From: Pseudobdellovibrionaceae bacterium
Lineage (GTDB): Bacteria > Bdellovibrionota > Bdellovibrionia > Bdellovibrionales > JAMPXM01
Reading direction: 5' to 3'
Length of the DNA stretch: 54,564 nt
Assembly: GCA_947462815.1 (NCBI GenBank)
Contig: CANHQR010000018.1
Coordinates: forward strand, 1 to 54,564
Each line of letters opens with the position of its first letter. Position 1 is the first letter of the stretch. Below the pieces are notes generated by a model that did no database searches, was not told where the DNA came from, and worked only from the letters and a program-made list of their open reading frames with translations. A program made the position numbers and the translations under genes. Below, piece by piece: positions 3,430 through 20,800 of this stretch.

Positions 3430-4476
3430 ATGAGTCGAATTCTAGTCACAGGCGGCGCGGGCTACATTGGCTCTCACATGTGTTGGGAGTTGGTGGGCCG
3501 AGGCCACGAAGTCCTTGTGATCGACGACCTCTCCACCGGCCACGAGCAGGCTCTCCCCCCGGGCACGACACTTTTGCGCGGCCAAGTCGGTGCGCCCGAG
3601 ATCGCCGCCGCACTCGCGCATGAGCACGCGCGCTCGCCACTTGCGGGAGCCATGCACTTTGCAGCTAAAGCCCGTGTCGATGAGAGTGTGCGTTTCCCGG
3701 ACCTCTATTTTGAGCACAATACCCAGCAGACTTTGCGGTTGGCTCAACAGTTGCGCGAGTTAAAAGTACCTTGGTTCATGCTCTCCTCGACGGCCGCCGT
3801 TTATGGCAACACTTCTGGAGAGTTGATTCGGGAGGACCATCCGGTGGCACCTGCCTCGCCCTATGGTGAATCGAAGCTTCGCGCCGAGCTCGGGCTGCGC
3901 GATTGGGCGGCTTCCGGCGGCGAACGCGTCGCGATTCTTCGCTACTTCAATGTGGCGGGTGCTGATCCCGAGATGCGTACAGGTCAGTCGACACCTCAAG
4001 CGACACATTTGATTAAGTTGGCGGCGCAAACCGTGGTCGCCTTTGAACGAGGACAAGCTTCAGGCGCTTCCTCGTCCGTGAGCCCCACGATGCAGATTCA
4101 TGGCACGGACTATCCAACTCACGACGGCACTTGTCTGCGCGACTATGTGCATGTGTCGGACATCGCCGGTGCGCACCTGGCTGTGATGGAGTCCCTGATG
4201 AACTCCACGACTTCGTCGCGCGACGCCCGTGTCTTCAACGTAGGCTATGGGCAGCCCTACTCTGTTCGCGAGGTCTTGGCATGCATGCAAGATGTCTCGG
4301 GCGTGAAGTTTCCGATTGTCGAGGGCCCTCGCCGCGAGGGCGACGTCGTACGCGTGGCTTGTGATTCGCGACGCCTTCAAGCCGAGACGGGTTGGGCGCC
4401 CCGCTTCGCTGATCTGAAGTTGATTTGTCAGACGGCGCTCGCCTGGGAGCGCCGCTTAGCGGCCCGAACGCTGTGA
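3430..4476 (+). CDS. galE: UDP-glucose 4-epimerase
   Basis: A 348-residue extended short-chain dehydrogenase that interconverts UDP-glucose and UDP-galactose with tightly bound NAD. The Rossmann motif TGGAGYIGSH is at residues 7-16, followed by VIDDLSTGH, MHFAAKARVDESV, the SSTAAVYG catalytic Ser/Thr segment, and SPYGESKL, which supplies the Tyr-x-x-x-Lys pair. RYFNVAGADP and the DGTCLRDYVHVSD nucleotide-sugar motif follow. The start is preceded by a G-rich stretch that may act as a ribosome site. Its 3' end overlaps the convergent lipoprotein gene by 21 bases. It probably supplies galactose donor for the neighbouring polysaccharide genes. Confidence 0.95.
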   Translation: MSRILVTGGAGYIGSHMCWELVGRGHEVLVIDDLSTGHEQALPPGTTLLRGQVGAPEIAAALAHEHARSPLAGAMHFAAKARVDESVRFPDLYFEHNTQQTLRLAQQLRELKVPWFMLSSTAAVYGNTSGELIREDHPVAPASPYGESKLRAELGLRDWAASGGERVAILRYFNVAGADPEMRTGQSTPQATHLIKLAAQTVVAFERGQASGASSSVSPTMQIHGTDYPTHDGTCLRDYVHVSDIAGAHLAVMESLMNSTTSSRDARVFNVGYGQPYSVREVLACMQDVSGVKFPIVEGPRREGDVVRVACDSRRLQAETGWAPRFADLKLICQTALAWERRLAARTL

Positions 4477-5193
4477 AGTCGGAGCAGGTGTCGACTGAGG
4501 TGGCGATTGGGGCCTCGAACGAGTTGGCGAAGTGGGCGTGGACGCCGGTTGAGCGGGCGACGGCGGTTCGGCTTTCGCGAGCGACAGATAGAGCTCACTC
4601 GTGCAAATCCAGTTCTGCGATTCGGCGCAGATCTCCACTTGTTCCGGCGACTCCAACTCGGCGAGCTGCTCAAGTCTTTGGCGCGTCTTTCGCCAATTTT
4701 TGAAACTCGACTTTTTCCATTGTTCCTCGGGTACGGCCTCGAGAACTCGGAGGGCGGCCACGCAACTGCAATCTCGAGCGCAGTTTTCAACGTTCGCAGG
4801 AAGCTTGTAGGTTTGTGGCTCATCGATCATTCGACCAGCCTCTTCAGAGGCGCGCTGATCCAACCAAGGCCGCAAAGCGGCAAGCGCGCGTTCAGCCATG
4901 GCTCCGCTGATGCGACACTTGAGACCCGCTTCGTCGACGGCGCCCTGCCAAGAGTCGAGACTGCGGTCAAAGGCCACTCGAAACACATTCGCGGCGGCAT
5001 TCAATTGCAAATAGCTGAGCGGTTTAAGCGCCGAGTCAGGTACGCCTTCGATCTCCTGAGCCGGGGGAGCGACAATGGGACGCGACGCACAGCTCGAGAA
5101 AAGTGCCAACATCCCTGTCGCGATGATCAGCGAGACGAAACGCCCACGAGCGATCCGCCAGGCCGGTCGCGTTCTATTCACAAACCTCATCAC
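4456..5193 (-). CDS. Cys-containing putative lipoprotein
   Basis: A 245-residue protein of unknown function. The N-terminus has a basic region, a hydrophobic stretch (LIIATGMLALF) and a lipobox ending in SSC at about residue 35, so an outer-membrane or periplasmic lipoprotein is likely. The mature region has paired cysteines (NCARDCSC, EICAESQNWIC) that could form disulfides. It ends in a Pro/Ser/Thr-rich tail of about 40 residues. Its start overlaps the stop of the NodB lipoprotein gene by four bases, implying translational coupling, so a partner role with the deacetylase is plausible. No family is recognised. Confidence 0.65.
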   Translation of the reverse strand: MMRFVNRTRPAWRIARGRFVSLIIATGMLALFSSCASRPIVAPPAQEIEGVPDSALKPLSYLQLNAAANVFRVAFDRSLDSWQGAVDEAGLKCRISGAMAERALAALRPWLDQRASEEAGRMIDEPQTYKLPANVENCARDCSCVAALRVLEAVPEEQWKKSSFKNWRKTRQRLEQLAELESPEQVEICAESQNWICTSELYLSLAKAEPPSPAQPASTPTSPTRSRPQSPPQSTPAPTSQRSGR

Positions 5194-6668
5194 GGCGTTG
5201 TCCCCTGATTAACCGCATCGACGGCTCGACCGACGGTGACCACGCGAGCACCTTGCGCCCGCAAATGATCCATCACGATACTCGATGCGCGAATCGTGGT
5301 GGTGTGCACATCGTGGAAGAGAATAATTCCGCGACCTTGAGCATTAATTTGTCGAATGGTTCGCGCGGCACAGCTTTCAGGATTGCGGTCTTGCCAATCC
5401 AAAGAGTCCACGTTCCACATCACATGCACCAGGCCCGCCTGAGTGATTCGACTGCGAATGGCCGATTTGTTGACACCATTGCCGTAGGGCAAACGGAAAA
5501 AGCGGAGCCTCTGTCCGTACGTGCGTTCCAAAATTCTCGTACTCTCGAGGATTTGTTGATCCAGTCCACTTTCGCCGAGCGTGGGCAAGTTCGCATGCGA
5601 GTGCGAGTGATTGGCGAGTTCGTGACCTTCACTCTTCGCTCTCTGAACAATCGACGGATAGTTGGGAGCCAAACGCGACAGCCAGAAAAAGGTCGCCGGC
5701 ATCTGCCTGGCTCGCAAAGCATCGAGGATGGCGCCTGTGGGCCCGCCGGGACCGTCGTCGTACGTCATCGACCAAACTCCGCGCGGGAATTCACGACCAT
5801 TGATATTGCCTCCCGCACCTGAACTTGGCCCAATCGACTGAGGCGAGCGATCCGCCCGAATCGAAGCTTTGATCGCCTGAAAGCGACGCTCGATTTCAGG
5901 TTGCAGCGCTCGTTGCGTTAACGATTCGGAGCGATTGAATCGTGAGATGGCGGCCGCGTTGAGGCGCCGAAATTCAAGTTCCTGATCCAAACTCGGAAAG
6001 GTAAAGCGCTGCATCCGCGTGCGCACTTCCGCCAGATAAGGCGCGGCGAGAGGTGTCGCTCCCAGCTCGATATTTTGATATCTCTCCAGCGTGTGCTCCA
6101 TGAGCGGCGCGATCGCGGCTCGCTGTGCCACATTGGGTCTGGCCGTCATGCGATCGAGAGTGTGAAACACTTGTTCGAAGCGCTGTCTGACATCGCGGCT
6201 GACCTGGCCTTGCCGAGCCTCGAGACTTGTCTCAAGGCTCGCATCAAGAGCGCCACCCACCATCAGGTCCGAGAGCAACTCTTTTTGCTCATCGACGAGC
6301 GAGCGAATCGCCCAGAGTCGCAAATACTGATTAGAGTCGATGAGATCCAGATCAGGTTTCGCATTCAGTTTCTCATTGAGTTCCAAATCAAACTTCGCAA
6401 TCGCTTCATCTGCGATCCCCTGCAAGCTGATCCACTTGTTAAACTCGCGCCGCAAATCTTGGGCGCCAGAGGGCCGATTGAGGACGCGATTGAACGTGGC
6501 GACAGCTTGCGTGTCCACCACAGGATCCTGGGCCGGCTCACGTCTCAAGGGGTGCGTGCTCGTTTCCGCGCGATCCTGCGCCTCCTCAGTCGGGCGAGAA
6601 GGACCCGAGATACAAGCCGTCATCAGAAGGGGAGCGATCATCATCAACGAAAATTTTTGAATGTTCAT
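5190..6668 (-). CDS. Lipoprotein polysaccharide deacetylase (NodB domain)
   Basis: A 492-residue protein with a signal sequence and lipobox (LLMTAC, Cys about residue 19). Residues about 40-280 are helical and unrecognised. The C-terminal 200 residues form a carbohydrate esterase family 4 NodB domain, which removes acetyl groups from N-acetylated sugars such as peptidoglycan or poly-GlcNAc. The five signature motifs are visible: MTYDDGPGG (metal and base Asp), NHSHSHANL (H-S-x-x-H zinc ligands), RLPYGNGV, NVDSLDWQD, and LFHDVHTTT. It starts a two-gene unit with the downstream lipoprotein. Envelope or exopolysaccharide modification is likely; the substrate cannot be told. Confidence 0.92.
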   Translation of the reverse strand: MNIQKFSLMMIAPLLMTACISGPSRPTEEAQDRAETSTHPLRREPAQDPVVDTQAVATFNRVLNRPSGAQDLRREFNKWISLQGIADEAIAKFDLELNEKLNAKPDLDLIDSNQYLRLWAIRSLVDEQKELLSDLMVGGALDASLETSLEARQGQVSRDVRQRFEQVFHTLDRMTARPNVAQRAAIAPLMEHTLERYQNIELGATPLAAPYLAEVRTRMQRFTFPSLDQELEFRRLNAAAISRFNRSESLTQRALQPEIERRFQAIKASIRADRSPQSIGPSSGAGGNINGREFPRGVWSMTYDDGPGGPTGAILDALRARQMPATFFWLSRLAPNYPSIVQRAKSEGHELANHSHSHANLPTLGESGLDQQILESTRILERTYGQRLRFFRLPYGNGVNKSAIRSRITQAGLVHVMWNVDSLDWQDRNPESCAARTIRQINAQGRGIILFHDVHTTTIRASSIVMDHLRAQGARVVTVGRAVDAVNQGTTP

Positions 6669-6783
6669 CGACCATCAGTTTAACTGATGAGTCGGTTCGA
6701 GGGGAAAGATCGCAGAGTCGAGGCGAGGTCGGTGTTCGATTCTCGCCCAGAGTCTCGCGCCGAATTTCGCACCGATTTCGAAG

Positions 6784-6802
6784 CCGACCCGCCAAAGGTC
6801 GG
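6784..6802 (-). terminator. Weak hairpin after glmS
   Basis: Read on the minus strand just past the glmS stop, ccgacc and ggtcgg form a 6-bp GC stem with a 7-base loop. There is no clear T tract, so it is at best a weak terminator. Confidence 0.3.
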
Positions 6803-6815
6803 GCCTCCGGAAATC

Positions 6816-8714
6816 TCACTCCACAGTCACCGACTTAGCCAAGTTGCGGGGCTGATCCACGTCATGGCCCAAAGCATTGGCGACGTGGTAAGCGAGCAAC
6901 TGTACAGGAATGGCCTCGAGAATCGCATTCACTGTCCATTCTGCTTTGGGCAAAGACAAATAGTGATCGCTGACCGCTTTGAGCTGAGAATTGTCGCCTG
7001 TACCGATGGAAATGATCTTTCCACCTCGCGCTTTGGCCTCTTCTAAGTTCGACAAGGTTTTTTCGTAGTTCTTGTCCGAAGGACAAACCATGACGATCAA
7101 CATGCGTTCATCGATAAGAGCCAGTGGACCATGCTTCATTTCGCCAGCCGCGTATCCTTCCGCGTGCATGTAGGCGAGCTCCTTCAACTTCAAGGCACCT
7201 TCAAGTGCAATGGGATAATTGATACCTCGGCCCATGAACAGGATCCCGCGATAGCCTTTCAGGGTCGCCGCGGCCTCTGCAAAAAACGAGTCGTAAGCGA
7301 GGACGGATTCCATTTGCGCCGGTGTACCGAGTAGAGCGTCTAAATAACGTCGCTCGCGCTCGCGATCCAACTGGCCCCGCAATTTGCCAAGCTGCAACGC
7401 AAAGAGATTCAGCACGGCGAGCGTGGACACGAAAGCCTTTGTCGAAGCCACACCAATCTCGGGACCTGAATTCATATACAAGTGACCATGGGCTTCTCGA
7501 TCAATGGACGATGCGCGTACATTGCAAATCGACAGGGTCAGAGCTCCGGCTTGCTTCGCCAAGCGAAGAGCGGCCAAAGTATCGGCTGTTTCTCCCGATT
7601 GAGAAATGACCAACACGAGGCTTCGGGGTGGGATGAAGGGCTCTCGATAGCGAAACTCACTCGCGATGTCGACTTCCACAGGAATGCGGGCGATCTGTTC
7701 GATCAGATACTTTCCTGCAATGCCCGCATAGTGGCTGGTACCGCACGCGATAATGAAAATGCGGTCAATGTTCTTGAGCTTCTCAAAACTCAAAGCCTGA
7801 TCGACCTTGGCGTCGAGTCTGTTGATCTCGTCAAAATGTTGTGCGGAAAAGCCAAGGCCTGAGAGACGAACGCTCTGTGAATCGAGGTCGATATGAGGCG
7901 CCATTGCATTGGCCACAGCCCGCGGCTGCTCGTGAATCTCCTTGAGCATGAAATGATTGAATCCCGCTTTCTCAACAAGATCCGCCGACCAATCGATCGT
8001 GACGATGTCCTTTTTGAGCGAGCGTCCTTGATGGTCCGTAACTTCGTACTTCCCGCCTTTGACCTTCACCACTTCGTTGTCGTTAAGGTAAACAACGCGC
8101 TTGGTCGTCGAAATGATGGCCTGGACGTCACTCGCGACGACAATCTCGCCGTCACCCACCCCCAGCACCAGCGGTGGTCCATTTTTGAACGCGACCATGA
8201 CGTCGGGTTGTTGTTCCCATACGGCGACAATCGCATAAGCGCCGATCAATCTTGGCCAAACTTTCAGGACGGCCGCATGCAGATCACCCGTCTTCTTCAC
8301 CTCGTGGGCGAGCAAATGGGCCACGAGTTCGGAATCTGTGTCCGATAAAAACTGGCTGCCCTGAGCCGCCAACTCTTGGCGAATCTCTTGATAGTTCTCA
8401 ATGATGCCATTGTGGACGAGGGTGACGCCGCCCATCGAATGCGGATGCGCGTTGCGCTCGCTCGGTACACCATGCGTTGCCCAGCGTGTGTGGCCAATAC
8501 CCAAATGACCGGTGAACTTCTCCTGATCAAGTTTTCGCGATAACTCGATGAGTTTTCCCTGCGCTCGCACGACGCGAAACCTCGCTTGGCCTTGCACTTG
8601 ATCCAATACGGCGATTCCCGCACTATCGTAGCCCCGGTACTCCAGCCGCTTTAAGCCGTCGACAATCACTTGTTTCGGATCTTTGGGTCCCCAATAGCCG
8701 ACAATTCCGCACAT
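6816..8714 (-). CDS. glmS: Glutamine-fructose-6-phosphate aminotransferase
   Basis: A 632-residue enzyme making glucosamine-6-phosphate from fructose-6-phosphate and glutamine, the first committed step to UDP-GlcNAc. The start is placed at the Met of MCGIVGYWGP because Cys must become the N-terminal nucleophile after Met removal; a longer in-frame reading adds 35 residues and would block this. The glutaminase domain shows GHTRWATHG and SDTDSELVAHLL. Two SIS domains follow (IIACGTSHYAG, ISQSGETADTLAAL, MGRGINYPIALEGALKLKE). The C-terminal AKSVTVE ending matches the family. A GAGG ribosome site overlaps the end of glmU, only 14 bases upstream, so the two genes form an operon. Confidence 0.97.
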   Translation of the reverse strand: MCGIVGYWGPKDPKQVIVDGLKRLEYRGYDSAGIAVLDQVQGQARFRVVRAQGKLIELSRKLDQEKFTGHLGIGHTRWATHGVPSERNAHPHSMGGVTLVHNGIIENYQEIRQELAAQGSQFLSDTDSELVAHLLAHEVKKTGDLHAAVLKVWPRLIGAYAIVAVWEQQPDVMVAFKNGPPLVLGVGDGEIVVASDVQAIISTTKRVVYLNDNEVVKVKGGKYEVTDHQGRSLKKDIVTIDWSADLVEKAGFNHFMLKEIHEQPRAVANAMAPHIDLDSQSVRLSGLGFSAQHFDEINRLDAKVDQALSFEKLKNIDRIFIIACGTSHYAGIAGKYLIEQIARIPVEVDIASEFRYREPFIPPRSLVLVISQSGETADTLAALRLAKQAGALTLSICNVRASSIDREAHGHLYMNSGPEIGVASTKAFVSTLAVLNLFALQLGKLRGQLDRERERRYLDALLGTPAQMESVLAYDSFFAEAAATLKGYRGILFMGRGINYPIALEGALKLKELAYMHAEGYAAGEMKHGPLALIDERMLIVMVCPSDKNYEKTLSNLEEAKARGGKIISIGTGDNSQLKAVSDHYLSLPKAEWTVNAILEAIPVQLLAYHVANALGHDVDQPRNLAKSVTVE

Positions 8715-8728
8715 ATTCAGTTGCCTCG

Positions 8729-10282
8729 TTAGCTTTTGCTGTCTGTCGAATGGGGACCTGTCGAAGTCGCTGAAGGCTCCCCGCCCGATGAAGTCGTGAC
8801 GTCGCGTTTTGGCGACCATTCCGGTTTATTAACTTGGCGACCTCGCGCAATTGCCAAAGCCCGATCCGGCACGTCTTCCGTGATCGTCGAACCCGATGCG
8901 ATCGTCGCCTGACTTCCCACATGGATCGGGGCAACGAACTGAACATCGCTGCCGATGAAGCTGCCATCGCCAATCACAGTGCGATACTTTTTTCGGTCCG
9001 GAGCATAATTGCACGTGATGGTTCCGCAACCGATATTCACATCTTGGCCCACGGTCGCATCGCCCAAATAAGTGAGATGCCCCGCTTTTGAGCGGGCACC
9101 GAAGTCCGTCTTCTTCATCTCCACGAAGTTACCCACATGTGACTCTTCACGTAGAGTTGTGTCAGGACGAAGATGGGCATAGGGACCAATCGATACTCGA
9201 TTTTCTAAAACGGCATGATCGATGTAGCAGCCCGACTTCACATGCACTCCATCGCCGAGAGTCGAAGAGATGATATGCGTACCCGGCTCAAGCACACAGT
9301 AGGCGCCGATGCGCGTGCGTCCGCGCAGCAACACATTCGGATAGACGACACTGCCGGAGCCGATTTGCACTTCGTCCTCGGCATACACCGTCGACGGATC
9401 CAACATCACCACTCCATCAGCCATGAGTCTTTGACGATTGCGATTGAAAACCACGCGCGAGGCCGACGCCAGTTCGGCTTGGGCATTCACACCAAATGCC
9501 ACAGCTGGCCGTGTACGAAGCGCGTCGACTTTATGGCCGGCCTCGATCGCGAGCGTGATGATATCGGTGAAGTAAAACTCCCCCTTCGCGTTCTTGTTAT
9601 CGATACGCGGGAGCAATTCGCGAAGTCTTTCAGCTTTGAGAATATAGGCGCCGCTATTCACTTCTCGGACGCGAAGCGTTTCTGACGAGGCATCGCTCGC
9701 CTCCACGATCGCGCGCAGCGGACCGTCGAGAGAGCCCAAAGGCTGACGAACGATTCGGCCCAGTGACCCCGGTCGTTTCAGGCGACTGGTGATGACGGCG
9801 ACATCGAGGCGACGTTCTTTAAACTCCTGGACCAAAGACTTGAGGTCGTCGGCCGTCACCAAAGGCGCATCGCCACACAGCACGAGCACCAAGCCCTCGA
9901 TCGAATCCACGTCAGCCGCTCGAACCGCATCCGCCGTTCCGCGCTGCTCTTTTTGCTGAAAGCAAATGCCTCCGAGAGGCTCCACAACTTTACGCACCAG
10001 GGCCTCTCCGTGTCCGACAACAATCCGCAGCTCACGGCAACCGGCGTCTCGGGCCGCGGTCATCACCCGCATGACCATCGGCAGACCCGCAACGGGGTGC
10101 AAGACCTTAGGCAAGGGCGACTTCATGCGTGTACCCTTGCCCGCCGCGAGAATGATCGCAGTCAGCGGTGTGAACGTCGTTTGCGATGCGGCCGACGCGC
10201 CTCGACTGGAATCGGGACCGGCAGCTTGAGACGCGTGAGGGGCGGATGCGGCTTTGCGGTAGGACTTTTCGTGTTTTGACAT
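8729..10282 (-). CDS. glmU: Bifunctional GlmU, N-acetylglucosamine-1-P uridyltransferase
   Basis: A 517-residue enzyme that acetylates glucosamine-1-phosphate and transfers UMP, giving UDP-GlcNAc. The start is set at MSKHEKSYRK; the frame is open about 1.1 kb further upstream, but that stretch lies antisense to the peptidase gene and has no protein-like character. After a 40-residue Ala/Ser-rich leader comes the nucleotidyltransferase motif ILAAGKGTRMKSPLPKVLHP. VLCGDAPL and the product site (REVNSGAYI) follow. The left-handed beta helix begins near DPSTVYAEDEVQIGSG and includes SHVGNFVEMKK and GTITCNYAP. The leader and the Ser/Thr-rich tail (TTSSGGEPSATSTG) are unusual additions. It is the first gene of glmU-glmS. 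Confidence 0.95.
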   Translation of the reverse strand: MSKHEKSYRKAASAPHASQAAGPDSSRGASAASQTTFTPLTAIILAAGKGTRMKSPLPKVLHPVAGLPMVMRVMTAARDAGCRELRIVVGHGEALVRKVVEPLGGICFQQKEQRGTADAVRAADVDSIEGLVLVLCGDAPLVTADDLKSLVQEFKERRLDVAVITSRLKRPGSLGRIVRQPLGSLDGPLRAIVEASDASSETLRVREVNSGAYILKAERLRELLPRIDNKNAKGEFYFTDIITLAIEAGHKVDALRTRPAVAFGVNAQAELASASRVVFNRNRQRLMADGVVMLDPSTVYAEDEVQIGSGSVVYPNVLLRGRTRIGAYCVLEPGTHIISSTLGDGVHVKSGCYIDHAVLENRVSIGPYAHLRPDTTLREESHVGNFVEMKKTDFGARSKAGHLTYLGDATVGQDVNIGCGTITCNYAPDRKKYRTVIGDGSFIGSDVQFVAPIHVGSQATIASGSTITEDVPDRALAIARGRQVNKPEWSPKRDVTTSSGGEPSATSTGPHSTDSKS

Positions 10283-10339
10283 CGCATTGCAGGTTAATGC
10301 CGCTCGACAAGTGCGGCAAGGAATCCGCAAAATCGTCTT

Positions 10340-11125
10340 ATGGATGATCGCGGCAATTCTCCAGACAAAAGACCCACGGGTGATACGGGCACCCGCTCTC
10401 GTGCCCTTTTGTCCACAACAAGACATTGGCCATGTTGGAAAAAAACCTCGCGCGGAACGCCGATTGAACTTCTCGCCTCGATGAGTGTGGATGATTTGCG
10501 ACGATCTCGGCCCATCCTCCTCATGGGCGGTGTGCATGGCGACGAGCCCGAGGGTGTACAATTCGCTGAGGAGACTTTGCGATGGTTGCTCGAGGCCGAG
10601 GCCGCTGGGGAGAAGCTTTGCCCGTGGATTCTCATTCCCTGTCTGAATGTCGATGGCCGGGCGGCCGATCAACGCGTGAATGCGCGCGGAGTCGACCTCA
10701 ATCGAAACTACCCCTCTCGAGATTGGACCACCGAAAGCAAAGCCGATCGCTACTTTCCGGGGCCTCAGGCCGCGAGTGAGGTTGAAGTTCAAGGCGTTGT
10801 GGAACTGATTCGAGATTTCCATCCGCGACTCATCATTCACTGCCACTCTTGGGAACCATGTATCGTGGCAACCGGCGACCGCGCTCTGCGAGACGGCGAG
10901 AGGCTGGCGCGCGCCTCGGGCTACGAGCTGAGGCCCGAAATCGGCTACCCAACACCCGGCTCGCTGAGTCGATATGCTTGGCATGACCTGCAAATCCCGG
11001 TCATTTGCATTGAAGAGCGAGATCGACACAATGGCATGAGCGATTTGAGCGAGGTCTGGCCGAGATTTGCACCGGGAATCCAAGAAATCTTCCGCGACCT
11101 GACGGACCGAGGCGCATCGACATGA
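10340..11125 (+). CDS. M14 zinc carboxypeptidase, MpaA-like murein peptide amidase
   Basis: A 261-residue metallopeptidase resembling MpaA, which cleaves the gamma-D-Glu to diaminopimelate bond of murein tripeptide during peptidoglycan recycling. Zinc ligands fit GGVHGDEPEG (His66 and Glu69) and the HCHSWEP segment (His about 167-169). RGVDLNRNYPSRD carries the conserved substrate-binding Asn-Arg, and the late VICIEERDRHN segment holds the likely catalytic Glu. There is no signal peptide, as expected for a cytoplasmic enzyme. The first 45 residues are poorly conserved in character, so an internal start such as Met48 is possible. It is divergent from glmU by 57 bp, and its stop overlaps the next gene in ATGA. 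Confidence 0.85.
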   Translation: MDDRGNSPDKRPTGDTGTRSRALLSTTRHWPCWKKTSRGTPIELLASMSVDDLRRSRPILLMGGVHGDEPEGVQFAEETLRWLLEAEAAGEKLCPWILIPCLNVDGRAADQRVNARGVDLNRNYPSRDWTTESKADRYFPGPQAASEVEVQGVVELIRDFHPRLIIHCHSWEPCIVATGDRALRDGERLARASGYELRPEIGYPTPGSLSRYAWHDLQIPVICIEERDRHNGMSDLSEVWPRFAPGIQEIFRDLTDRGAST

Positions 11126-14100
11126 AGACCCCTCTCGACTCAACTTCGATGCACGTGCAGCGCCACTTTGTTCTCGATCTCGACGACACCTTAATTCCCA
11201 CGACCGACTTTCTCCTTCCAGCCGCCTTACAAGACGTAGCCGCAGCTTTGACACGCGCCGTACATGTGCCCGTGCAAGCTGCCGACTTGCTGGCAGCTCG
11301 GCGTGCGGCGTTGATCGAAGCCCCTCGTCGTGATCCTTGGACTGCAACATTGCGGAGCGTGGGCTTGGTACAGCCTGACTCCCGGTCGAGTGCGAACGCG
11401 CCGACATCGATGGGGTCACCCTCGTCGTCGAACGCTGGACAGCATGAGCATCAGCTCATTCGCATCGCACGCGAGGCCTTTTATGTACGCCAGGTCGAGA
11501 GCGTTATACCGAGCTATGGCGCGGAGAATTTCTTGCGATTTCTGAGCGAGCGTGGCCATTTGCATCTCGTGACCGCCGGCGATTCCACCACTCAACAGCG
11601 CAAGGTTGAACTCTTCATCCGGAGTTATTGGCCGGCAGGTTTTCGCAGCATCCATGTCGTCAAAAGTGGCGGCCAATACAAGCAGACCGCGTTTCGCCAA
11701 ATCGAAGAGCGCGAGCGGACGGCGGCCAGCGCGGGCGAAACAATTGAATTTTGGTCCATCGGTAACCGTGTCGACACAGATCTCGGCGAAGCTAAACTTC
11801 TAGGCTGGAAGACGGTTTGGATTCAACAAGGTGAACACGCACCGATGACTCCCCAGGAGTCTCATGAACGACCTGACTTTCGTTTCGTGAACTTGGATGA
11901 GGCGCAAAAGGGACTTCGTTTGATCCTACCGATCACTGCAGAAGCCGGGTCAACGATGGCTCCGACTCGATCTCGAGCCACCAGTTCATCGATCGTGCTG
12001 ATTGGACCTCAGAATTTGTATGAACTCGCAGAAGAGTGGGGAGCTGATCACTTTCATGCAATTCGAGATTTCCAACAAAGCTACGAACCCAAGCTCCGCG
12101 AGAGCGGCGGCTGGGGACTGCAAGCTTTTGCCGCCGATGCGATCGCCATCGATACGGGGATCGCCGGGCAAGAGGTCCGCGAACTTCAAGACCTCATGCA
12201 CAATCTCGAGCAGTCGGGTTTACCAACACAGTGTATTCTCGTTGGCCCCACGACGTGCAAATCTCTTGCGGCGACCCAAGGTTTGCGGATCTGGGCCCAT
12301 GTCTCTTCTTGGGAAGAGCGTGAGCCGTTGTTACAAGAGCTCTTCGAGGCGAGCGGCGAAGCGCGAGAGGAACGACAGAATCGCGAAAGCCTCCAGCTTT
12401 ATCATGCGCACAATGAGGAGCTGGAGCGACTCTCAGGAGAACTCGAGCAACGAGTTCTTTCGCGGCGAAACGAACTGGCCGAAAGCTCGACGAAACTTCA
12501 AGCTTCGCAGAGACGCAATGAAGTCCTCCAGCGAGCACTCACCGGCGTGCACCTCGCGAAGGGCGTTGCGGAGATGGAGCGTGTGCTGCTACAAGCTCTC
12601 GGCGACTTTCCGGGCGTCCATTGGGTGCGGATCGCGTTTCAAAGCCTCAGCCGGCTTGAGAATCCAGCGCCGCTGGGTCAGCTGGCGGATCATGTGCACA
12701 CGATTTCACTGGGGGAAATTGGCCCGACTCCCCTCGGGCATTTACACTTCGGCAGAACCGATGATCGCCCCTTTCGCTCTGACGAACGCGCCCTTCTCTC
12801 GAGCGTCGGCGAGGCGGTAGCTCTTGCGGTTCGTCGTCTGCAGACCAAGGTGCGACTGGAGCAGATCAAGCGCGAATGGGAAGAAACGTTCAACGCCATC
12901 GTCGATCCCGTCGCTGTCTTCGACGAGCAACTCCGACTCGTGCGCGGCAATCGAGCTCTCGCGCAAAGAGCTCAGCAATTCGGCCTGACTCGCGAAACGA
13001 TGATCGGACAAGCCTGTCACCGGGTGATGTTTGGACGAAGCTCGCCCTGCGAAGCCTGTCCGGTTGCCCAAGATCGAGACGCCCATAGAGGACGCCTGCC
13101 CTCGTCGACCTCTTCGCGACAATTTCGAATCAACGAACTTCAAAAAGGCGAGCGTTTAACTTTCGAGGCTTCAGCTCGACCCATCCAGCACCTGGCAGAT
13201 CCAAGCATCGGCGAGAATACGGCAGAGGGGTCTGGGGAAGGTGGCGAAAGCCTTTTTGTTCATCTCTATCGGGATATCAGTGAGTCGCTCAAATTTGAGC
13301 GTCGGATCCTCGAGTCTTCCAAGATGGCGGAACTCGGCACAATCGGCTCGAGCATTGCTCATCAGTTGAATAATCCCATTGGTGGAATGTTGAGCCACAT
13401 CCAACTCCTTTTGATGGATTTAAATCGCCTTGAGTTTCAGTCCAACCAGCAGCGCGACGACCTTCGTATCGAGCTCAAGGAGATGGAAGCCGGCACACGC
13501 CGCTGCGGCCAAATCGTACAAGATCTCCTGGGTTTTACGCGGCGAAGCCATGAGGCCGAGGCTTCACCCCAAGATTTGATGGACATACTCCGCCAAGCCA
13601 TCAAGATCACCGAACTCCAAACCCGATCGCGAGGTGTACGTTTCATCGTCGAAGCTCCACCCGACCTCGAGCAGGTCCAAATCACGGGTTATTTCAATCC
13701 GCTCGCACAAGCCCTTCGCGCGGCTTTGCTCGCCGTCGTACCGAGTCAGCTCCGCGATCATGTGATACGGCTCCGATTGGCGCCTGAGCGTCGCTCAGGC
13801 ATCGAGCAAGGCCCCTCCGTTAGCTCGTCGGCCGAGATTTTGAGACTCGAAATCGGTCTCAAGTTGGAAGGCTTACATCAAGACTTCCGCGCCGAGCCTC
13901 GTGGTCGACCCGACTCGACCGAGGTCCAGGACTCAGGTCAAAGTGATGCGGCCGCTGACTTCGACTCGCCTCGTTTGAATCTGAGTGAAGCTGCGCCAAC
14001 CGAACGACGAGATTCCGCAAAAAACGACATCGAAAACCTCGATCTCACGGTGGCCGAGCAGATCGTCCAGGAACACGGCGGATCTTTTGAATGGCGTCCA

Positions 14101-14184
14101 GGACCACCTCGACAGATTTTGATTCGACTTCCCCGAAGTCCGGTTTTGAGCGAAAGTACGCCGCCATCGCCGCCGAAAATTTGA
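11122..14184 (+). CDS. Hybrid HAD-phosphatase / PAS / histidine kinase fusion
   Basis: A 1020-residue protein with an unusual domain order. Residues about 15-255 look like a HAD hydrolase: DLDDTL at 19-24, a VTAGDSTT motif II, KSGGQYKQ supplying the Lys, and SIGNRVDTDLGEAK as motif IV. Residues about 268-400 resemble a degenerate receiver (SIVLIGPQN... AIAIDTG... CILVGP). A coiled coil (about 410-470) leads to a GAF-like region and then a PAS domain with Cys632, Cys643 and Cys646 (CEACP). The HisKA helix is ELGTIGSSIAHQLNNPIGG with phospho-acceptor His747. The ATPase part is degenerate: an N-box-like NPLAQALRAALLAV and a late EQIVQEHGGSFEW remain, but no DxGxG box is seen. It overlaps the amidase by 4 bp and precedes an NtrC-type regulator. 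Confidence 0.8.
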   Translation: MKTPLDSTSMHVQRHFVLDLDDTLIPTTDFLLPAALQDVAAALTRAVHVPVQAADLLAARRAALIEAPRRDPWTATLRSVGLVQPDSRSSANAPTSMGSPSSSNAGQHEHQLIRIAREAFYVRQVESVIPSYGAENFLRFLSERGHLHLVTAGDSTTQQRKVELFIRSYWPAGFRSIHVVKSGGQYKQTAFRQIEERERTAASAGETIEFWSIGNRVDTDLGEAKLLGWKTVWIQQGEHAPMTPQESHERPDFRFVNLDEAQKGLRLILPITAEAGSTMAPTRSRATSSSIVLIGPQNLYELAEEWGADHFHAIRDFQQSYEPKLRESGGWGLQAFAADAIAIDTGIAGQEVRELQDLMHNLEQSGLPTQCILVGPTTCKSLAATQGLRIWAHVSSWEEREPLLQELFEASGEAREERQNRESLQLYHAHNEELERLSGELEQRVLSRRNELAESSTKLQASQRRNEVLQRALTGVHLAKGVAEMERVLLQALGDFPGVHWVRIAFQSLSRLENPAPLGQLADHVHTISLGEIGPTPLGHLHFGRTDDRPFRSDERALLSSVGEAVALAVRRLQTKVRLEQIKREWEETFNAIVDPVAVFDEQLRLVRGNRALAQRAQQFGLTRETMIGQACHRVMFGRSSPCEACPVAQDRDAHRGRLPSSTSSRQFRINELQKGERLTFEASARPIQHLADPSIGENTAEGSGEGGESLFVHLYRDISESLKFERRILESSKMAELGTIGSSIAHQLNNPIGGMLSHIQLLLMDLNRLEFQSNQQRDDLRIELKEMEAGTRRCGQIVQDLLGFTRRSHEAEASPQDLMDILRQAIKITELQTRSRGVRFIVEAPPDLEQVQITGYFNPLAQALRAALLAVVPSQLRDHVIRLRLAPERRSGIEQGPSVSSSAEILRLEIGLKLEGLHQDFRAEPRGRPDSTEVQDSGQSDAAADFDSPRLNLSEAAPTERRDSAKNDIENLDLTVAEQIVQEHGGSFEWRPGPPRQILIRLPRSPVLSESTPPSPPKI

Positions 14185-14361
14185 CACTGCCGCCCGACAC
14201 TCCCTAGCATGTAAAGAAGCACGAGCCGCAAATCGGCTCCAGGAGCGAATTGTACGGAGTTCGTAGAATCTTGTGTGAGTTCCCGAAGTTAGGGGCGACA
14301 AAATTCTGCAACCGTCCATTCACCCCGACGGAGGTGAGATGCGTCTTAGGTGCGAAGCGGG

Positions 14362-14392
14362 GATCACGCGCCAAAATGATCACACGCCAAAA
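14362..14392. repeat. Tandem 15-bp near-repeat between kinase and regulator
   Basis: gatcacgcgccaaaa (14362-14376) and gatcacacgccaaaa (14378-14392) differ at one base and are separated by one base. They lie in the 326-base gap between the kinase and the NtrC-type gene and could be a regulator binding site. Confidence 0.7.
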
Positions 14393-14399
14393 AGTTGGG

Positions 14400-14422
14400 C
14401 CGTCAAGGCTCCAACTTGACGG
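14400..14422. promoter_or_regulatory. Perfect 8-bp stem hairpin
   Basis: ccgtcaag and cttgacgg pair perfectly around a 7-base loop (gctccaa). There is no T run after it, so it is more likely an operator or RNA structure than a terminator. Apart from this hairpin, the adjacent direct repeat and an unconvincing 83-codon frame, nothing else was recognised in 14185-14510. Confidence 0.5.
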
Positions 14423-14510
14423 TCGGCGGGATGCCGAACCGAAGAAACGTAGCGAACTGCGCGCGTCCACGCGGAGATCACTGCGAACGACGAAAGGATG
14501 ACGTCGACAT

Positions 14511-16166
14511 ATGTCCAACGCTTATCGCGGCAATCAAGGCCTCGCCCCGGGTTCGAATCCCCCTCTTTCCGCCACGTCGACATCGACAACGTCAGTTGGG
14601 CGTGGACCCAATCAAAGCTTTGATCCATCGATGGATTCCATCAGTGGAGTCGTGAGCCACGGACCCCGCCCGCTTCGCGCCGATGGGAAACCTTTCCGCG
14701 CTCTCGTCGTCGATGATGAATCGACTTTAAGAACGGCACTCTTTCGCGTACTCGACCGACAAGGCCTACAAGTCATCACAGCCGCATCGAAACGCGAGGC
14801 TGAAGGCATGATGAGCCCCGAGAATCCATTTGATGTGGCCCTCGTCGATTTAAAACTACCGGACGGCGATGGTATCGATTTGATGGGCAAAATTCGCTCA
14901 CAGAATCCCCAATGCCAGGTGATCATCCTCACCGGTCATGCGTCGATTGAGATCGCAGTTCGCGCCACACAAATGGGTGCATTTCACTTCGTCACCAAGC
15001 CCTTCAATATTGAAGAGATCGTTTCTTTGGTCGACAAAGCGGCATCTCATAAATGTCTTCTGCAGGAAAATCAGAATCTTCGTTCAGCCCTCCACCGTCG
15101 TTACCGATTCGAAAATATTATCGGCCAAAGCGACGAGATTCGACGCGTCCTCGACATGGTGGAGCGTGTCTCCGATTCCGAATCGACCGTACTCGTCACG
15201 GGAGAAAGTGGTACAGGCAAAGAGCTGATCGCCAAAGCGATTCACTACAATTCCGCGCGCGCGAATCGGCCCTTTGTTCCCGTTAATTGCGGAGCGATCC
15301 CAGCTGAACTGCTCGAGAGCGAACTCTTCGGCCACGTGAAGGGTGCTTTCACCGGCGCCATCGCCAACCGCGCGGGCCGATTTGATTTGGCCTCCGGGGG
15401 CACACTGTTCCTCGACGAAATCGGCGAATTGCCTTTGAACTTGCAGGTCAAACTTCTACGCGTTCTTCAGGAGCGACGTTTTGAACCCGTTGGTAGCGTA
15501 AAAACTCATGAGGTCGACGTACGCGTGATTGCCGCCACCAATGTGGATTTGGCTCGAGCTGTTCAGAAGGGCCAATTTCGCGAAGATCTATTCTACCGCC
15601 TCAATGTGATCCCGATGCGACTCCCGGCCTTGAAAGAGCGACGCAGCGACATCCCCATCCTACTCCGCCATTTCGTCGAGCTCTATAATCAGAAGGAGCA
15701 ACAAAAGCCGAATCGAAACCGAGCCCCTCGCCAACTTGCCGGCTTCAGCGCCGAAGCTCTGGAAGCTTTAATGCTTTATCCTTGGCCCGGGAATATTCGC
15801 GAACTCGAAAACCTGGTGGAGCGCCTGGCTGTGCTGAAGGGCGAAGGCCAGATTGAGGTTCTGGATCTTCCTGAACAATATCGACCTCAGAATATGCCGC
15901 AGGCCTTCGGCAATGTGCGAATGCCAGAAGGTGGCGGGCTCCGCGAGCAGATGGAGGCCATAGGTGGCTTTGAAGAATTGCCCGAAGCCGGCATGGACTT
16001 CAATTCAGCCGTCGATGCCTACGAGAACGCGTTGATCCTCCGGGCTCTGGAAAAGACGGGTTGGAATCGAAACCAAGCCGCTGCACTCCTCAAACTGAAT
16101 CGGACGACTTTAGTTGAGAAGATCAAGAAAAAGGGTCTTCGCCCTCCGCCGGAAGCTGAAGCTTGA
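14511..16166 (+). CDS. Sigma54-dependent NtrC-family response regulator
   Basis: A 551-residue transcription activator. The receiver domain begins at RALVVDDES and carries phospho-acceptor Asp113 (VDLKLPDG), the ILTGHAS Thr and the TKPF Lys. The AAA+ domain has Walker A GESGTGKE, the sigma54-contacting GAFTGA loop at 278-283, Walker [12 protein letters not shown], and [12 protein letters not shown] Fis-type helix-turn-helix closes the protein ([19 protein letters not shown]). The first 40 residues (Ser/Thr/Gly/Pro-rich, translated across a tRNA-like fragment) are not family-like, so Met41 at 14631 may be the true start, although aagga lies 12 bases before 14511. It is the expected partner of the kinase just upstream and overlaps the acetyltransferase by 4 bp. 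Confidence 0.93.
14549..14574 (+). other. tRNA-Ser-like 3'-end fragment within direct repeats
   Basis: The bases gggttcgaatccc followed by a CTCTTTCCGCCA ending match the T-arm and acceptor 3' end typical of bacterial tRNA-Ser. No matching 5' acceptor strand or cloverleaf is found upstream, so this is a fragment at most. A 10-bp direct repeat (acgtcgacat) sits at 14501-14510 and 14574-14583, bracketing the piece. It lies inside the first codons of the NtrC-type gene. It could be an attachment-site remnant or chance. Confidence 0.35.
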
Positions 16167-16783
16167 TCAACATTCGCCGCGCTGAATTTGTAGAGGTCGA
16201 GAAGCTTTGGCGCGAGCGTCTCTGGCCGCAGCGAAAGTCTGCGATCGAATCCAATAGCGCGATGATTCTCGGCGGCGGCATCGACCTGACCTTTATGAGC
16301 GAGAAGGCCCAGTTTTGGATCGCCGAGGACCTGGGCGATGAGTACTCAGAGGGTCATTCCGAGCGGCGCGCCATTGGCTGTCTTTCTGGTCACTTCGCTG
16401 GGCACTTTGCAGGTCGGCCTGTAGGTCGGCCTGTAGGTCGTTCTGGGGATCGCTCTGGTGATGGCTCTGGGGGCGGCTCTCTCGATCCCGCTCTGGACAA
16501 TTCAACACTGCGAGTACAGGGCCCGCGAGAACACGGTGGACGCCTGTACAGATCCCGGGGACTTTGGGTCGATCAAAGTCGCCGCCGAAGAGGTATCGCC
16601 CGGCAACTTATGCGCGAACTGATTGACCACGCACAATCGCAAGGTGCGGTGGCCATCTGGACCTTTCCGCGCAAAACCGCCATGCCCTTCTATGAGAGCA
16701 TGGGTTTTCGCATGTGGAGCACTTGGCTCCCTCAACAAGAGGGCGATTCAGATCTCAACTGCTACGCAATTCTGGAACTCTGA
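16163..16783 (+). CDS. GNAT-family N-acetyltransferase with repeat insertion
   Basis: A 206-residue protein starting at TTG that overlaps the regulator's stop as TTGA. The C-terminal half has GNAT hallmarks: GLWVDQSRRRRGIARQLM is the acetyl-CoA pyrophosphate loop (R/Q-x-x-G-x-A), and MPFYESMGFR is the late beta-bulge motif. The N-terminal half (WRERLWPQRKSAIES, GIDLTFM) matches small GNATs. Between them, residues about 76-106 are a Gly/Arg/His-rich low-complexity insertion made of 12-bp repeats, where a surface loop would be. Substrate is unknown. Coupling to the two-component genes suggests co-expression. The insertion may be tolerated because it replaces a loop. Confidence 0.8.
   Translation: MINIRRAEFVEVEKLWRERLWPQRKSAIESNSAMILGGGIDLTFMSEKAQFWIAEDLGDEYSEGHSERRAIGCLSGHFAGHFAGRPVGRPVGRSGDRSGDGSGGGSLDPALDNSTLRVQGPREHGGRLYRSRGLWVDQSRRRRGIARQLMRELIDHAQSQGAVAIWTFPRKTAMPFYESMGFRMWSTWLPQQEGDSDLNCYAILEL
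16388..16480 (+). repeat. 12-bp-unit tandem repeats in the GNAT gene
   Basis: About 93 bases encode GHFA, GHFA, GRPV, GRPV, then degenerate GRSGDRSGDGSGGGS. The two ggtcggcctgta units are identical, which suggests recent slippage. All changes keep the frame. Confidence 0.85.
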
Positions 16784-17010
16784 GCAGCCAAATCGTGCGT
16801 ATTGTCGTCACGATGAAAAGCGCAATGAACTCCGCACAACTCAAATCCATTCCATTTGCCGCGCGGAAATAAGCGTTTCAGATCCAGATCAGGAGTAAAA
16901 TATAAATTGGAAACGACGACGTCCTGAAGACCATCATTGTCGACATTTATCAGAACAACTCCTCGGCCTTCCTTCTTCGATCGCACTCCAGCCTGCGGGG
17001 CAACATCTTA
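16762..17010 (-). pseudogene. Decayed FG-GAP/UnbV-like fragment
   Basis: The minus-strand frame reads a TAA at 17008-17010, then DVAPQAGVRSKKEGRGVVL and INVDNDGLQDVVVSN. This resembles the calcium-binding DxDxDGxxD blades of FG-GAP/CRTAC1-type beta-propellers. The frame ends at 16762, overlapping the GNAT stop. A further minus-strand stretch near 17050-17170 looks protein-like (NHLPVWLRSDDNSALSAS) but is cut by another stop. No intact gene can be assembled from 16784-17274, so this is read as a remnant. Only short similarity supports it. Confidence 0.35.
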
Positions 17011-17274
17011 GAAGTCGCGCGCCCTTCCTGCGGCTGATCCTAATTGAATACACGACCTTCTTCGAAAGCCGCCACCGAGTAACGTCCGGTTCTGATGGTA
17101 CTAGCGCTCAAAGCACTGTTATCATCACTTCGCAGCCAAACGGGCAAATGATTGAGCTTGGAGAAGTTTCCGCAGGTCTGCACGGATTATTCACTTTTTT
17201 CGAAAGCTTGACGACTGGACTGAGAACTACGAGCCCGCCAACAAAGGCCGAGATAAGATTGAGTGTTCTCAACT

Positions 17275-17937
17275 TCACCTGCGCCCCAATCTCATCCACC
17301 GACGGAGTGTCCAGTTGTCATATATGAAACGCATCTCCCCCTCCCACCACACCTCGCGAAGCGGGAAGCGTAACGAAAAATCAGCAAAATTCTGAGGAGC
17401 AGAGGCCATCGAATGCGAGGTCTCTTCCTGGCGCTCATGATCCGAGGCCTGTAGACCTACACAACATCCTGGGGGGATGTTCGCCCACCAAGTCGCGGTC
17501 TCTTCACCACTGGCTGCACGTAGAGAGGGAAAATGCTCTACCGAGGTGTTCAGAATTAAATTGGGTATCGCACCATACATATGATCCCGAAGAGGTTGCA
17601 ATTGATTGGCGTCGGCCGTGAAAGCCCGAAATTTCCATTCCTGCCATACCCAATTTTCATTCAAAGCGTTGGCACGATCTGTACTTTGCGCATCGAGATC
17701 GAAACTTCGAATTTGTTCGATCGGAAGTTGCTCTCGAGCTAGTAGTAAAAAACCTAGAAGACCTTGCCAGCCGCCATAGATCCAAACTCTGGCCGGCTGC
17801 TGAGAAGGCCCCTTGGACTTCCAATACATTTCGAGTTTTTCACATAGCCATAATTTGGATCCCACTTGGCCACTGGAAAACACATCTCGATCGAATTCTA
17901 GTGCAGCCAGTGGCTGTGAACAGTCTCGATGGATCAC
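17275..17937 (-). CDS. Putative class I SAM-dependent methyltransferase
   Basis: A 220-residue protein. KLWLCEKLE is followed by RVWIYGGWQGLLGFLLLAR, a glycine-containing strand-loop-helix that fits the SAM-binding motif I. IRSFDLDAQSTDRANALN supplies an acidic residue in the position of motif II. LILNTSVEHFPS, WWANIPPGCCVGLQ and a C-terminal EGEMRFIYDNWTLRRWMRLG complete the pattern seen in small methyltransferase-like proteins, including some from phages (recalled, not searched). The gene stands alone between a decayed remnant and an exported protein gene. The target of methylation is unknown. Confidence 0.6.
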   Translation of the reverse strand: MIHRDCSQPLAALEFDRDVFSSGQVGSKLWLCEKLEMYWKSKGPSQQPARVWIYGGWQGLLGFLLLAREQLPIEQIRSFDLDAQSTDRANALNENWVWQEWKFRAFTADANQLQPLRDHMYGAIPNLILNTSVEHFPSLRAASGEETATWWANIPPGCCVGLQASDHERQEETSHSMASAPQNFADFSLRFPLREVWWEGEMRFIYDNWTLRRWMRLGRR

Positions 17938-18176
17938 AGTCAGTTATCTTTGAGCCGCTCTAGTACGCTGTCAATTTTATTGACAGCTGACATTTTTTTG
18001 AGGAACGCACTCGGCTCATTGCGCGAGACGCTTTCAGTGCCATCTGAACTTGAAAAATTTAATCTCTTGAAGGTGTCGGCCCCCCAACAATGGCCTAGCT
18101 GTTGCAGCTCGACTCAATGAAGCTTTCACGTTGAGTTGGAATCAAATCCCGAGATGGTCAGCAGAGTCGAGGAAAA

Positions 18177-19094
18177 ATGAACTTTAAGGAGTTCCCACAG
18201 CAACGAACCCGCATGATTCACCCTCGTAAGGTGAAGCGATCGATGTTTGTTGTGATCCTCGTTGCGGCCTTCGTATTGTGCCAATCGTGGCTGGAGGCCA
18301 ACGACAGCCAAACCAATAATTTTTTGGGATTGAGGAGTCGAGCACTAAAGACCTCGGAATTTTCACAAAGCCTTGATCTGAGCTCGCGCGGGCCCGCGAT
18401 GATGCGATTATCACCCCGGCTTGAGGAAACCCTCAAAAGAAGTCAGCACAATGCGCGCCTTGAGGTCGAACTTGAAGCGCCACCCATTGTCCCACTCCAA
18501 CTGGCTGATTTTTCTCGAGCGCATAAGTTTTATCGCGGTCAGCTGATACGCTTTAACCTAGACCCAATCGAGAGCAAGCCAGAAACGAGTCCAAAAATGT
18601 CATTGCCGAGCCACATCAGTGTCGGCGATGATTTTTCCCGAGCGATGTCAAAGATTGTCGATCACAATGTGCAAAACTATTTGCGCGGAGAGGCTTTTCG
18701 ACATTCTGAACTTGGCCAAATGACCAAGCAAATTGAGCGAAGTTTGAGCGCCGGTCTCAGCTGGAGCGAGCGAAGCCATGGCTCTGCACCGGTCAAGGAC
18801 AGCACGCCGGCCATAGAATCGGCTACGACTTTTAAGGTTGAGGCGACAAGAAATGAACCTGCGGCTGATCAGCGCATTCAACATCGCCTGGAAGTTGGGC
18901 TCTTGGCAGCACAGGCCCAAGCGAAGATAACCTACGCGGGCTTCACAGACGCTGAGGTAACCTATTCTGCAGCCAATCAACAGTTGGCTTGGGCCCTTCG
19001 TGAACCGCTTCGAGAAAACTTTAGACTCGTCTATAATCACGTCGAAAACCGCGCCGAGCGACGCGACTCACTAAGCCTCCATCTAAGCTGGTAG
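18177..19094 (+). CDS. Exported protein of unknown function
   Basis: A 305-residue protein with a basic N-terminus and a signal-like hydrophobic segment (MFVVILVAAFVLCQSWLEA, residues about 23-41). The mature part has a polar helical middle and a C-terminal region of alternating residues (AKITYAGFTDAEVTY, FRLVYNHVENRAERRDSLSL) that ends HLSW, which suggests outer-membrane-type beta strands. No family is recognised. The ATG is preceded by gaggaaaa. The short frame at 19217-19507 resembles its C-terminus, so the two may be duplicated copies. Confidence 0.55.
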   Translation: MNFKEFPQQRTRMIHPRKVKRSMFVVILVAAFVLCQSWLEANDSQTNNFLGLRSRALKTSEFSQSLDLSSRGPAMMRLSPRLEETLKRSQHNARLEVELEAPPIVPLQLADFSRAHKFYRGQLIRFNLDPIESKPETSPKMSLPSHISVGDDFSRAMSKIVDHNVQNYLRGEAFRHSELGQMTKQIERSLSAGLSWSERSHGSAPVKDSTPAIESATTFKVEATRNEPAADQRIQHRLEVGLLAAQAQAKITYAGFTDAEVTYSAANQQLAWALREPLRENFRLVYNHVENRAERRDSLSLHLSW

Positions 19095-19216
19095 GGCCCT
19101 GACTTCATATGCGCAGCTAAGATCCGCTTCAACTCGCGAACCGAAGTGACCTGCATTAGCTCGACCTTTGACAGCTGAAGCTAAAGGCGCGATCGGACTC
19201 GGATCCCCCGCTCGAC

Positions 19217-19507
19217 TTGGCGCAATCAGTCCCAAGCCGCGAGGCTGTTTGCCTCGATTCGTACACACGAGCCTGCTCCGAGGCTAAACCGTTTGCGAAC
19301 CAGTTTTCCAAGCGACTGCTCGTGGACTTTAACTTAAAGGTACGGCTGGAAGAAATTCAGGACTTCGATGTATTCATCGTGTCCTCAAACAACCAACTCA
19401 GTTCAGGCCTACACAGCGATGTGGATTCGGCGAGCGTCGAGCTCGACTGGAATGAGAGTCTCGAATCGCGGCGACTTCTCAGCTTGCCCGTTCGCCTCGA
19501 ATTCTAA
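19217..19507 (+). pseudogene. Possible remnant paralogue of the preceding gene's C-terminus
   Basis: A 96-residue frame with only a weak TTG start. Its second half (LKVRLEEIQDFDVFI, SSNNQLSSGL, ending ESRRLLSLPVRLEF) aligns by eye without gaps to the end of the exported protein upstream: shared K, D, V, N, Q, L positions, and ERR/SRR then SL-x-L. There is no signal peptide or clear ribosome site. A TGA lies a short way upstream in frame. It is best read as a 5'-truncated copy; a small real gene cannot be excluded. Confidence 0.35.
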
Positions 19508-19513
19508 TCGCCC

Positions 19514-20800
19514 TCAGTGTTGTTTGGCGCCAATGTCCCGGCGAACTCGCGCGCCAGGCCAGGCCACCGCATCAACGATCCGATAGGCGCGATCCAGAGC
19601 CTCGCGAAGACTGCGACCCTCACCGATCGCATTGAGCACTCGCCCTCCCGATGTCACCCAGCGATTCTGAGCATCGCGCGCTGTTCCGGCGTGGAGTAAT
19701 CGCCCGGCCGCATGACGTCCATCCTCGTTCAAAGAGGGAATGAGTTGTCCTTTGACGACATTTTCCGGATACCCATCTGCGGCGAGCACAACAACGGACG
19801 TGTAGAGGTCGGATCTCCAGGAAAAATTTTGCGCAAGTTCACCACGAGCGACAGCCTCAAAAACCTCGAACCAATCGCCGTCGAGAAGCGGCAAGAGCGC
19901 CTGAGTTTCTGGATCTCCGAATCGAACGTTGAACTCGAGAACGCTCGGTCCTTGGTCGGTCACCATCACACCGATGAAAAGAACACCTCGAAAGAGAAAG
20001 CCGCGCTTTCGCATCAATGCGAGAGACGGCAAGACAACTTCACGTTCAATTCTCTCATTCAAACCCTGAGGCAGAACGATGGGTGCCACGACACCCATAC
20101 CTCCGGTGTTGGGGCCTTCGTCTCGATCGCGAAGCCGTTTGTGATCTTGGGCTGCAGGCAGTGTGAGATGTCGGTCTCCGTCCGTGATGATGAGGTGGCT
20201 CATCTCCCAACCGGGACTGAATTCTTCCAACAAGGCTCGTCGACCCGCATCGCCCAATTCTCGATTTTCAAAGAGCCGCACAGCGGCCTCGCGCAGTCCC
20301 GCAAGATCCTTTTCGATCAACACACCTTTGCCGGCCGCAAGGCCATCGGCTTTGAGTACATAAGGAGGCTTGAAGTTCTTCGCCGCCTCGAGAGTCTGTG
20401 CCACGGTCTCAACGATGAAATGTCGCGCCGTCGGCACACCGGCCTCGATCATGAATTCCTTGGCGTAGACCTTTGAAGCCTCGAGTTGCGCCGATTCAGC
20501 AGATGGACCAAAGACGAGGAAGCCGTCCTGACGTAAAGCATCACTCACCCCATCCGCCAGGACCTGCTCCGGCCCGATCACCACAAGATCAATTCTCAAC
20601 TCACGAAGTTTCGCCAATGTTGCCGCGAAGGCGGGGGAGTCGGGCTTCCAATTCAGTTCAAGTATTTTCGCATCAGCGGCCATTCCTGCATTTCCAGGAC
20701 TGGCATAAACCTGGTGGACACTCGGCGAGGCCGCAAGCGCCTGAACCAGCGCATGCTCGCGCCCCCCTGAGCCGACGACGAGAACTTGCCGACGATGCAT
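19514..20800 (-). CDS. purD: Phosphoribosylamine-glycine ligase
   Basis: A 428-residue ATP-grasp ligase that makes GAR from phosphoribosylamine, glycine and ATP in purine synthesis. The start is the Met of MHRRQVLVVGSGGREHAL, because a near-perfect ribosome site (ggaggtgat) lies just upstream; a longer in-frame reading adds 16 residues without such a site. Motifs include the N-terminal GSGGREHAL, the ATP-grasp KADGLAAGKGV, and QDHKRLRDRDEGPNTGGMG. The metal-binding EFNVRFGDPETQ follows. Length is normal. It is divergent from the thiolase gene, which it does not appear to be functionally linked with. Confidence 0.96.
   Translation of the reverse strand: MHRRQVLVVGSGGREHALVQALAASPSVHQVYASPGNAGMAADAKILELNWKPDSPAFAATLAKLRELRIDLVVIGPEQVLADGVSDALRQDGFLVFGPSAESAQLEASKVYAKEFMIEAGVPTARHFIVETVAQTLEAAKNFKPPYVLKADGLAAGKGVLIEKDLAGLREAAVRLFENRELGDAGRRALLEEFSPGWEMSHLIITDGDRHLTLPAAQDHKRLRDRDEGPNTGGMGVVAPIVLPQGLNERIEREVVLPSLALMRKRGFLFRGVLFIGVMVTDQGPSVLEFNVRFGDPETQALLPLLDGDWFEVFEAVARGELAQNFSWRSDLYTSVVVLAADGYPENVVKGQLIPSLNEDGRHAAGRLLHAGTARDAQNRWVTSGGRVLNAIGEGRSLREALDRAYRIVDAVAWPGARVRRDIGAKQH

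Follow-up and report, generated by a model that had tools for sequence, protein, structure and literature searches.

Repeated loss of the ATPase domain in a sensor kinase family encoded beside glmS, mpaA and an NtrC-type activator in the Bdellovibrio order

What can a histidine kinase do once its ATPase region has decayed, and what is such a protein doing beside cell-wall genes, joined to a phosphatase? The question was raised by a preliminary description of the window (the whole stretch of 54,564 nt of Pseudobdellovibrionaceae DNA analyzed here, contig CANHQR010000018.1), which proposed a HAD phosphatase fused to a sensor kinase and linked to murein recycling. Its gene map was borne out. The frame is open throughout a single ORF of 1020 codons (11122..14184, + strand), in which a HAD phosphatase is joined to a degenerate HisKA sensor protein (HK hereafter). 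This ORF overlaps (ATGA) an mpaA-like M14-family amidase gene (10340..11125, +) and is followed by an NtrC-type sigma54 activator gene (14631..16166, +), to which a GNAT gene (16163..16783, +) is coupled by TTGA. Divergent from these are glmU (8729..10282, −; start approximate) and glmS (6816..8819, −). A polysaccharide deacetylase gene (5190-6668) adjoins glmS, and an ORF with a lipoprotein-like start (4456-5193) lies downstream of the deacetylase gene and overlaps it.

Domain matches and structure models gave the order described earlier, HAD, pseudo-receiver, coiled coil, GAF, Cys-PAS and HisKA, with C632, C643, C646 and H747 at the positions claimed. The HK part (11956..14184, +) has a possible start of its own at ATG 11956 (M279), near the HK start of relatives. 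Its model (pLDDT 83) comprised a receiver-like alpha/beta domain (11992..12303, +; seen in the structure model only), a long coiled-coil helix (12319..12555, +; likewise from the model), a GAF-like domain (12565..12756, +; weak domain match plus model), a PAS domain (12910..13275, +; weak PAS_4 match at residues 590-648), a DHp domain (13279..13551, +; HisKA match at residues 743-809, E 7e-8) and a remnant of the ATPase (CA) domain (13564..14136, +) with a disordered lid. The three cysteines of the PAS domain form a C-x10-C-x2-C motif spanning 13015-13059. A motif of the form C-x9-12-C-x2-C was present in 81/109 orthologues and nearly absent in family f4; it suggests metal or redox sensing.

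The features required of an active kinase were found only in part. The DHp domain carries H747 (13360-13362), but no HATPase_c match was returned by Pfam for the window protein, and the N, F and G boxes were missing in addition to the DxGxG box, the absence of which had been noticed before. Position H+1, at which autophosphorylation calls for an acidic residue, is occupied by Q748. At H+4, N751 supplies the Asn/Thr of HisKA phosphatases. Judged by sequence and monomer model, a DHp domain with a degenerate or missing ATPase domain also places HK with Spo0B, ChpT and PhyT.

The HAD part (residues 14-268, 11161..11925, +) was modelled with a clear HAD core (pLDDT 91), and all motifs named in the preliminary description were found: DLDDTL with D19 and D21, T151, K187 and motif IV GNRVDTD from G214. 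These are the DxD, Thr/Ser, Lys and motif IV acid of HAD subfamily IA, and the fold matched HAD-IA phosphatases, close to PH1655, YfnB and NANP. All catalytic motifs and the fold are thus shared with TIGR02253, YjjG-YfnB and NANP phosphatases, but the score of the window HAD was far below the TIGR02253 cut-off. MupP is the MurNAc-6-P phosphatase of murein recycling. A MupP-like identity was considered and was unsupported: in the model comparison the HAD family resembled YjjG/NANP/TIGR02253 HADs more than MupP, 6/50 members matched the MupP model (best 2e-5), which many other HAD families outscored, and MupP was not among the two model matches of the window HAD.

The HK was searched for in 141 genomes of the Bdellovibrio order and found in 114, and 109 loci were read; within the class, to which the search was confined, it was also present in three genomes outside the order (f11). 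A recurring locus extended over nine families and consisted of glmS (divergent, 92 of 109 loci), mpaA (77), HAD (70), HK and a sigma54-type NtrC gene (105). The synteny with mpaA-like and NtrC-type genes was therefore conserved across most of the order. mpaA and HAD were absent more often than NtrC, some absences being contig ends, and most loci of f4, f5, f6 and f8 kept HK and NtrC without HAD. The preliminary proposal that the locus may sense a cell-wall turnover product handled by the HAD domain has to be weighed against these HAD-less loci and against the limited likeness of HAD to MupP. The GNAT gene was seen only in the window and the sister genus g5. Because the locus is conserved across the order, the tie to cell-wall metabolism suggested earlier appears to be more than a chance neighborhood, and gene order points to a possible cell-wall signal for the HK sensor. 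No paper matching this locus was found in the literature searched, in which only analogues turned up; it apparently encodes an uncharacterized sigma54 two-component system of relatives of predatory bacteria, linked through gene order to GlmS and to a murein amidase.

The fusion fared differently from the synteny. The preliminary description had treated it as a functional design, but HAD was an ORF of its own on the HK strand at all 70 loci that have it, close relatives included, which is an outcome named beforehand as refuting the idea, and none of these carried the HAD-to-HisKA fusion, which was seen only in the window genome; as the key conserved feature of the locus it is ruled out. At 14 junctions checked by hand, HAD overlapped the HK start by at most about 14 nt or abutted it, in most cases as HAD ...CRL stop followed by HK MPTLRSS, and in genus g5 as ATGA or TAATG. 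At the window junction (11906..11923, +), removal of one A from the AAAA run at 11906-11909 would bring a HAD stop TGA into use at 11921-11923, at about the usual length of the family, and this stop would overlap a TTG at 11920-11922 in the HK frame (TTGA). Since HAD is separate in relatives and this reading with one A fewer exists, the fusion is taken to be local, and may be real or an indel error of the assembly. Whether it is a real, selected two-enzyme protein is a question separate from the mechanism of HK, and the answer is doubtful: the open frame, and a frame-0 reading that models well to the end of HAD, speak for it, but the separate HAD genes and the canonical length restored by one base speak against it, and no second genome of the window genus was found among those searched. 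In the order at large, HAD is normally a separate gene, predicted to encode, within the same operon, a small-molecule phosphatase with intact catalytic motifs.

Motifs were then scored in the 108 HK orthologues whose C-termini are complete. The phospho-accepting His was kept in 108/108 and the H+4 Asn in 108/108; the H-box search pattern itself required this Asn, and every locus matched, none being dropped for its absence. The ATPase domain was intact in 32 orthologues and degenerate in 68 (a class that takes in milder cases of genus g20 missing only the lid), and 8 proteins ended right after the DHp helices. Residue by residue, retention stood at 53/108 for the N-box Asn, 74/108 for the DxG Asp, 34/108 for an F-box Phe/Tyr and 62/108 for the first Gly of the G box. 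In the eight ATPase-less orthologues the stop codon directly followed the second DHp helix; in seven of them NtrC lay 89-347 nt beyond the stop and no ATPase remnant was present in any frame, and the stretch read for the eighth (G049) yielded no NtrC. As a control, paralogous HisKA kinases from within the order were examined, and 20/20 kept every ATPase motif; the receiver Asp and Lys were kept in 103/103 readable NtrC proteins, with Thr/Ser likewise and GAFTGA near-invariant. The decay therefore appears specific to this HK and spares its NtrC partner.

Mapped on an NtrC tree, the change between intact and non-intact ATPase domains occurred at least six times, three of them forced by well-supported branches, and outright absence required four changes; these counts are approximate, as several deep rows sit on long branches. 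Gln at H+1 was found in the window and genus g5 only, which form one clade, and its association with ATPase loss thus counts once; few independent pairs bear on ATPase loss against HAD presence, Cys motif or H+1 identity. As far as the sequences tell, the missing DxGxG box of the window belongs to this repeated loss of the ATPase domain in HK orthologues, and the window protein probably cannot act as a kinase for that reason.

The NtrC-type protein of the window has the receiver Asp/Thr/Lys, the GAFTGA motif, the AAA+ domain and a Fis-type HTH, and the genome contains rpoN. The NtrC ORF is open from 14511, which is probably too early as a start; ATG 14631 is likely the better choice because the segment at 14549-14574 between HK and NtrC, GGGTTCGAATCCCCCTCTTTCCGCCA, resembles the 3' end of a tRNA-Ser. 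No Rfam element in window positions 4000-20000, and no whole tRNA at the locus, was found at threshold. The locus yielded no sigma54 site, and the genome no exact one. Sigma54 promoters ahead of mpaA, HAD and NtrC were also considered, and the idea was set aside because the counts were at chance level apart from one weak departure (5 vs 2, on one strand of mpaA).

Taken together, the best reading, to which we give roughly an even chance, is that HK is a kinase-dead, sensor-controlled phosphatase of NtrC. The window clade has Q at H+1, N at H+4 and no ATPase motifs; kinase activity has thus very probably been lost, phosphatase activity is our best guess for what was retained, and the co-encoded NtrC is the putative partner. 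The HK half would be a former bifunctional histidine kinase/phosphatase deprived of ATP binding and autophosphorylation, the DHp domain of which (H747, N751) would still dock on the receiver of the NtrC-type activator. The receiver-like, GAF and Cys-PAS domains would control the DHp domain, through which phosphate would be removed from NtrC~P; another kinase or a small phosphodonor would charge NtrC, and the sensor would set the duration of its activity. There is precedent in CrdS, where E372Q is kinase-dead with full phosphatase activity, N375 (H+4) is required for phosphatase activity, and for NtrB or EnvZ the DHp domain alone suffices (PMC3510030).

Several observations weigh against a phosphatase. 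The His is invariant even where the ATPase domain is gone, though CrdS H371A retains most of its phosphatase activity (PMC3510030), and such strict conservation is at least equally in keeping with phosphotransfer. The H+4 Asn is common in HisKA domains generally, including the intact paralogues, and hence does not single out phosphatases; moreover, no kinase was identified for NtrC. PhyT offers a caution: its ATPase domain is similarly degenerate, and this, together with what it did to its regulator in vitro, first led to its being proposed as a phosphatase, yet no such activity was seen in vitro and PhyT proved to be a phosphotransferase (PMC5898713). As the main rival reading, HK may be a dimeric His-phosphotransferase like Spo0B, ChpT or PhyT, with H747 taking phosphate from another receiver and handing it to NtrC, which we hold possible but rather unlikely. 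For it, the His is kept in 108/108 with the ATPase domain degenerate or absent in 76, and in five g20 genomes HK and NtrC are separated by genes for a hybrid kinase and a stand-alone receiver, the same kinds of component that make up the Pak-SdrG-PhyT-PhyR relay (PMC5898713); HK lacks the N-box Asn in each of the five. Against it, the insertion is limited to a few close species, and on the stretches read, most loci, ATPase-less ones included, have no further receiver gene. The hybrid histidine kinase (L061:8863-11462, and likewise in L092, L093, L094 and L095) has HisKA, HATPase and receiver domains and an apparent Hpt-like tail. The invariant His fits either a phosphatase or a relay, and HK here is probably an off-switch or relay rather than a kinase.

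Control of NtrC by binding only, with HK as a NifL-like anti-activator and no phosphate chemistry, is improbable: the NifL-NifA complex was among the top fold matches of the HK model, and NtrC, as NifA, is a sigma54 activator, but binding alone would not need the His, the H+4 Asn and the receiver Asp and Lys of NtrC that are invariant. Least probable of all is an HK that is still an active kinase, whether its ATPase domain is of an unusual type or a partner subunit provides the ATP. A CA-like fold persists in the model, and in some orthologues the lid alone is gone while the N, D and G boxes remain, but the window protein lacks the H+1 acid as well as each of the four motifs, and the domain is missing altogether in 8 relatives.

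Spo0B, ChpT, PhyT and DivL are kinase-derived proteins without working kinase activity that are known as single end points. Here, we lean slightly toward the view that one orthologous sensor kinase, fixed throughout the Bdellovibrio order beside genes of cell-wall precursor supply and recycling, was converted several times independently into an ATP-free phosphatase or phosphotransferase, DHp-only forms included, leaving a natural series of steps. Since the intact, lid-less, motif-less and ATPase-deleted versions of this gene share their locus and partner, the order of the steps and the selected activity are directly testable.

Among the closest known systems, CrdS and NtrB-type kinases have a HisKA DHp domain bearing the His and H+4 Asn and an NtrC-type partner, as in the window. 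The E-to-Q substitution that leaves CrdS with phosphatase activity only (PMC3510030) is present in the window, but the ATPase domain, functional in CrdS and NtrB, has been lost from HK and is missing entirely in 8 relatives. PhyT/PhyP of Sphingomonas, Spo0B and ChpT share with HK a kinase-derived DHp domain, a degenerate ATPase domain and a regulator at the same locus (PMC5898713); PhyT, unlike HK, has the DHp motif HRxxN and a non-sigma54 regulator, and in the HK family the loss took place several times among orthologues of which some remain intact. NifL is a kinase-like sensor acting on a sigma54 activator and a structural match to the HK model, whereas in the HK/NtrC pair the His and Asn and the Asp of the regulator's receiver are invariant. 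Finally, QseE/QseF (GlrK/GlrR) of enterobacteria, a two-component system with a sigma54 activator, shows that such a system can serve GlmS supply (PMC6075780); there an active kinase, encoded in an operon with qseG, acts via the sRNA GlmY, whereas the window is linked to GlmS by gene order.
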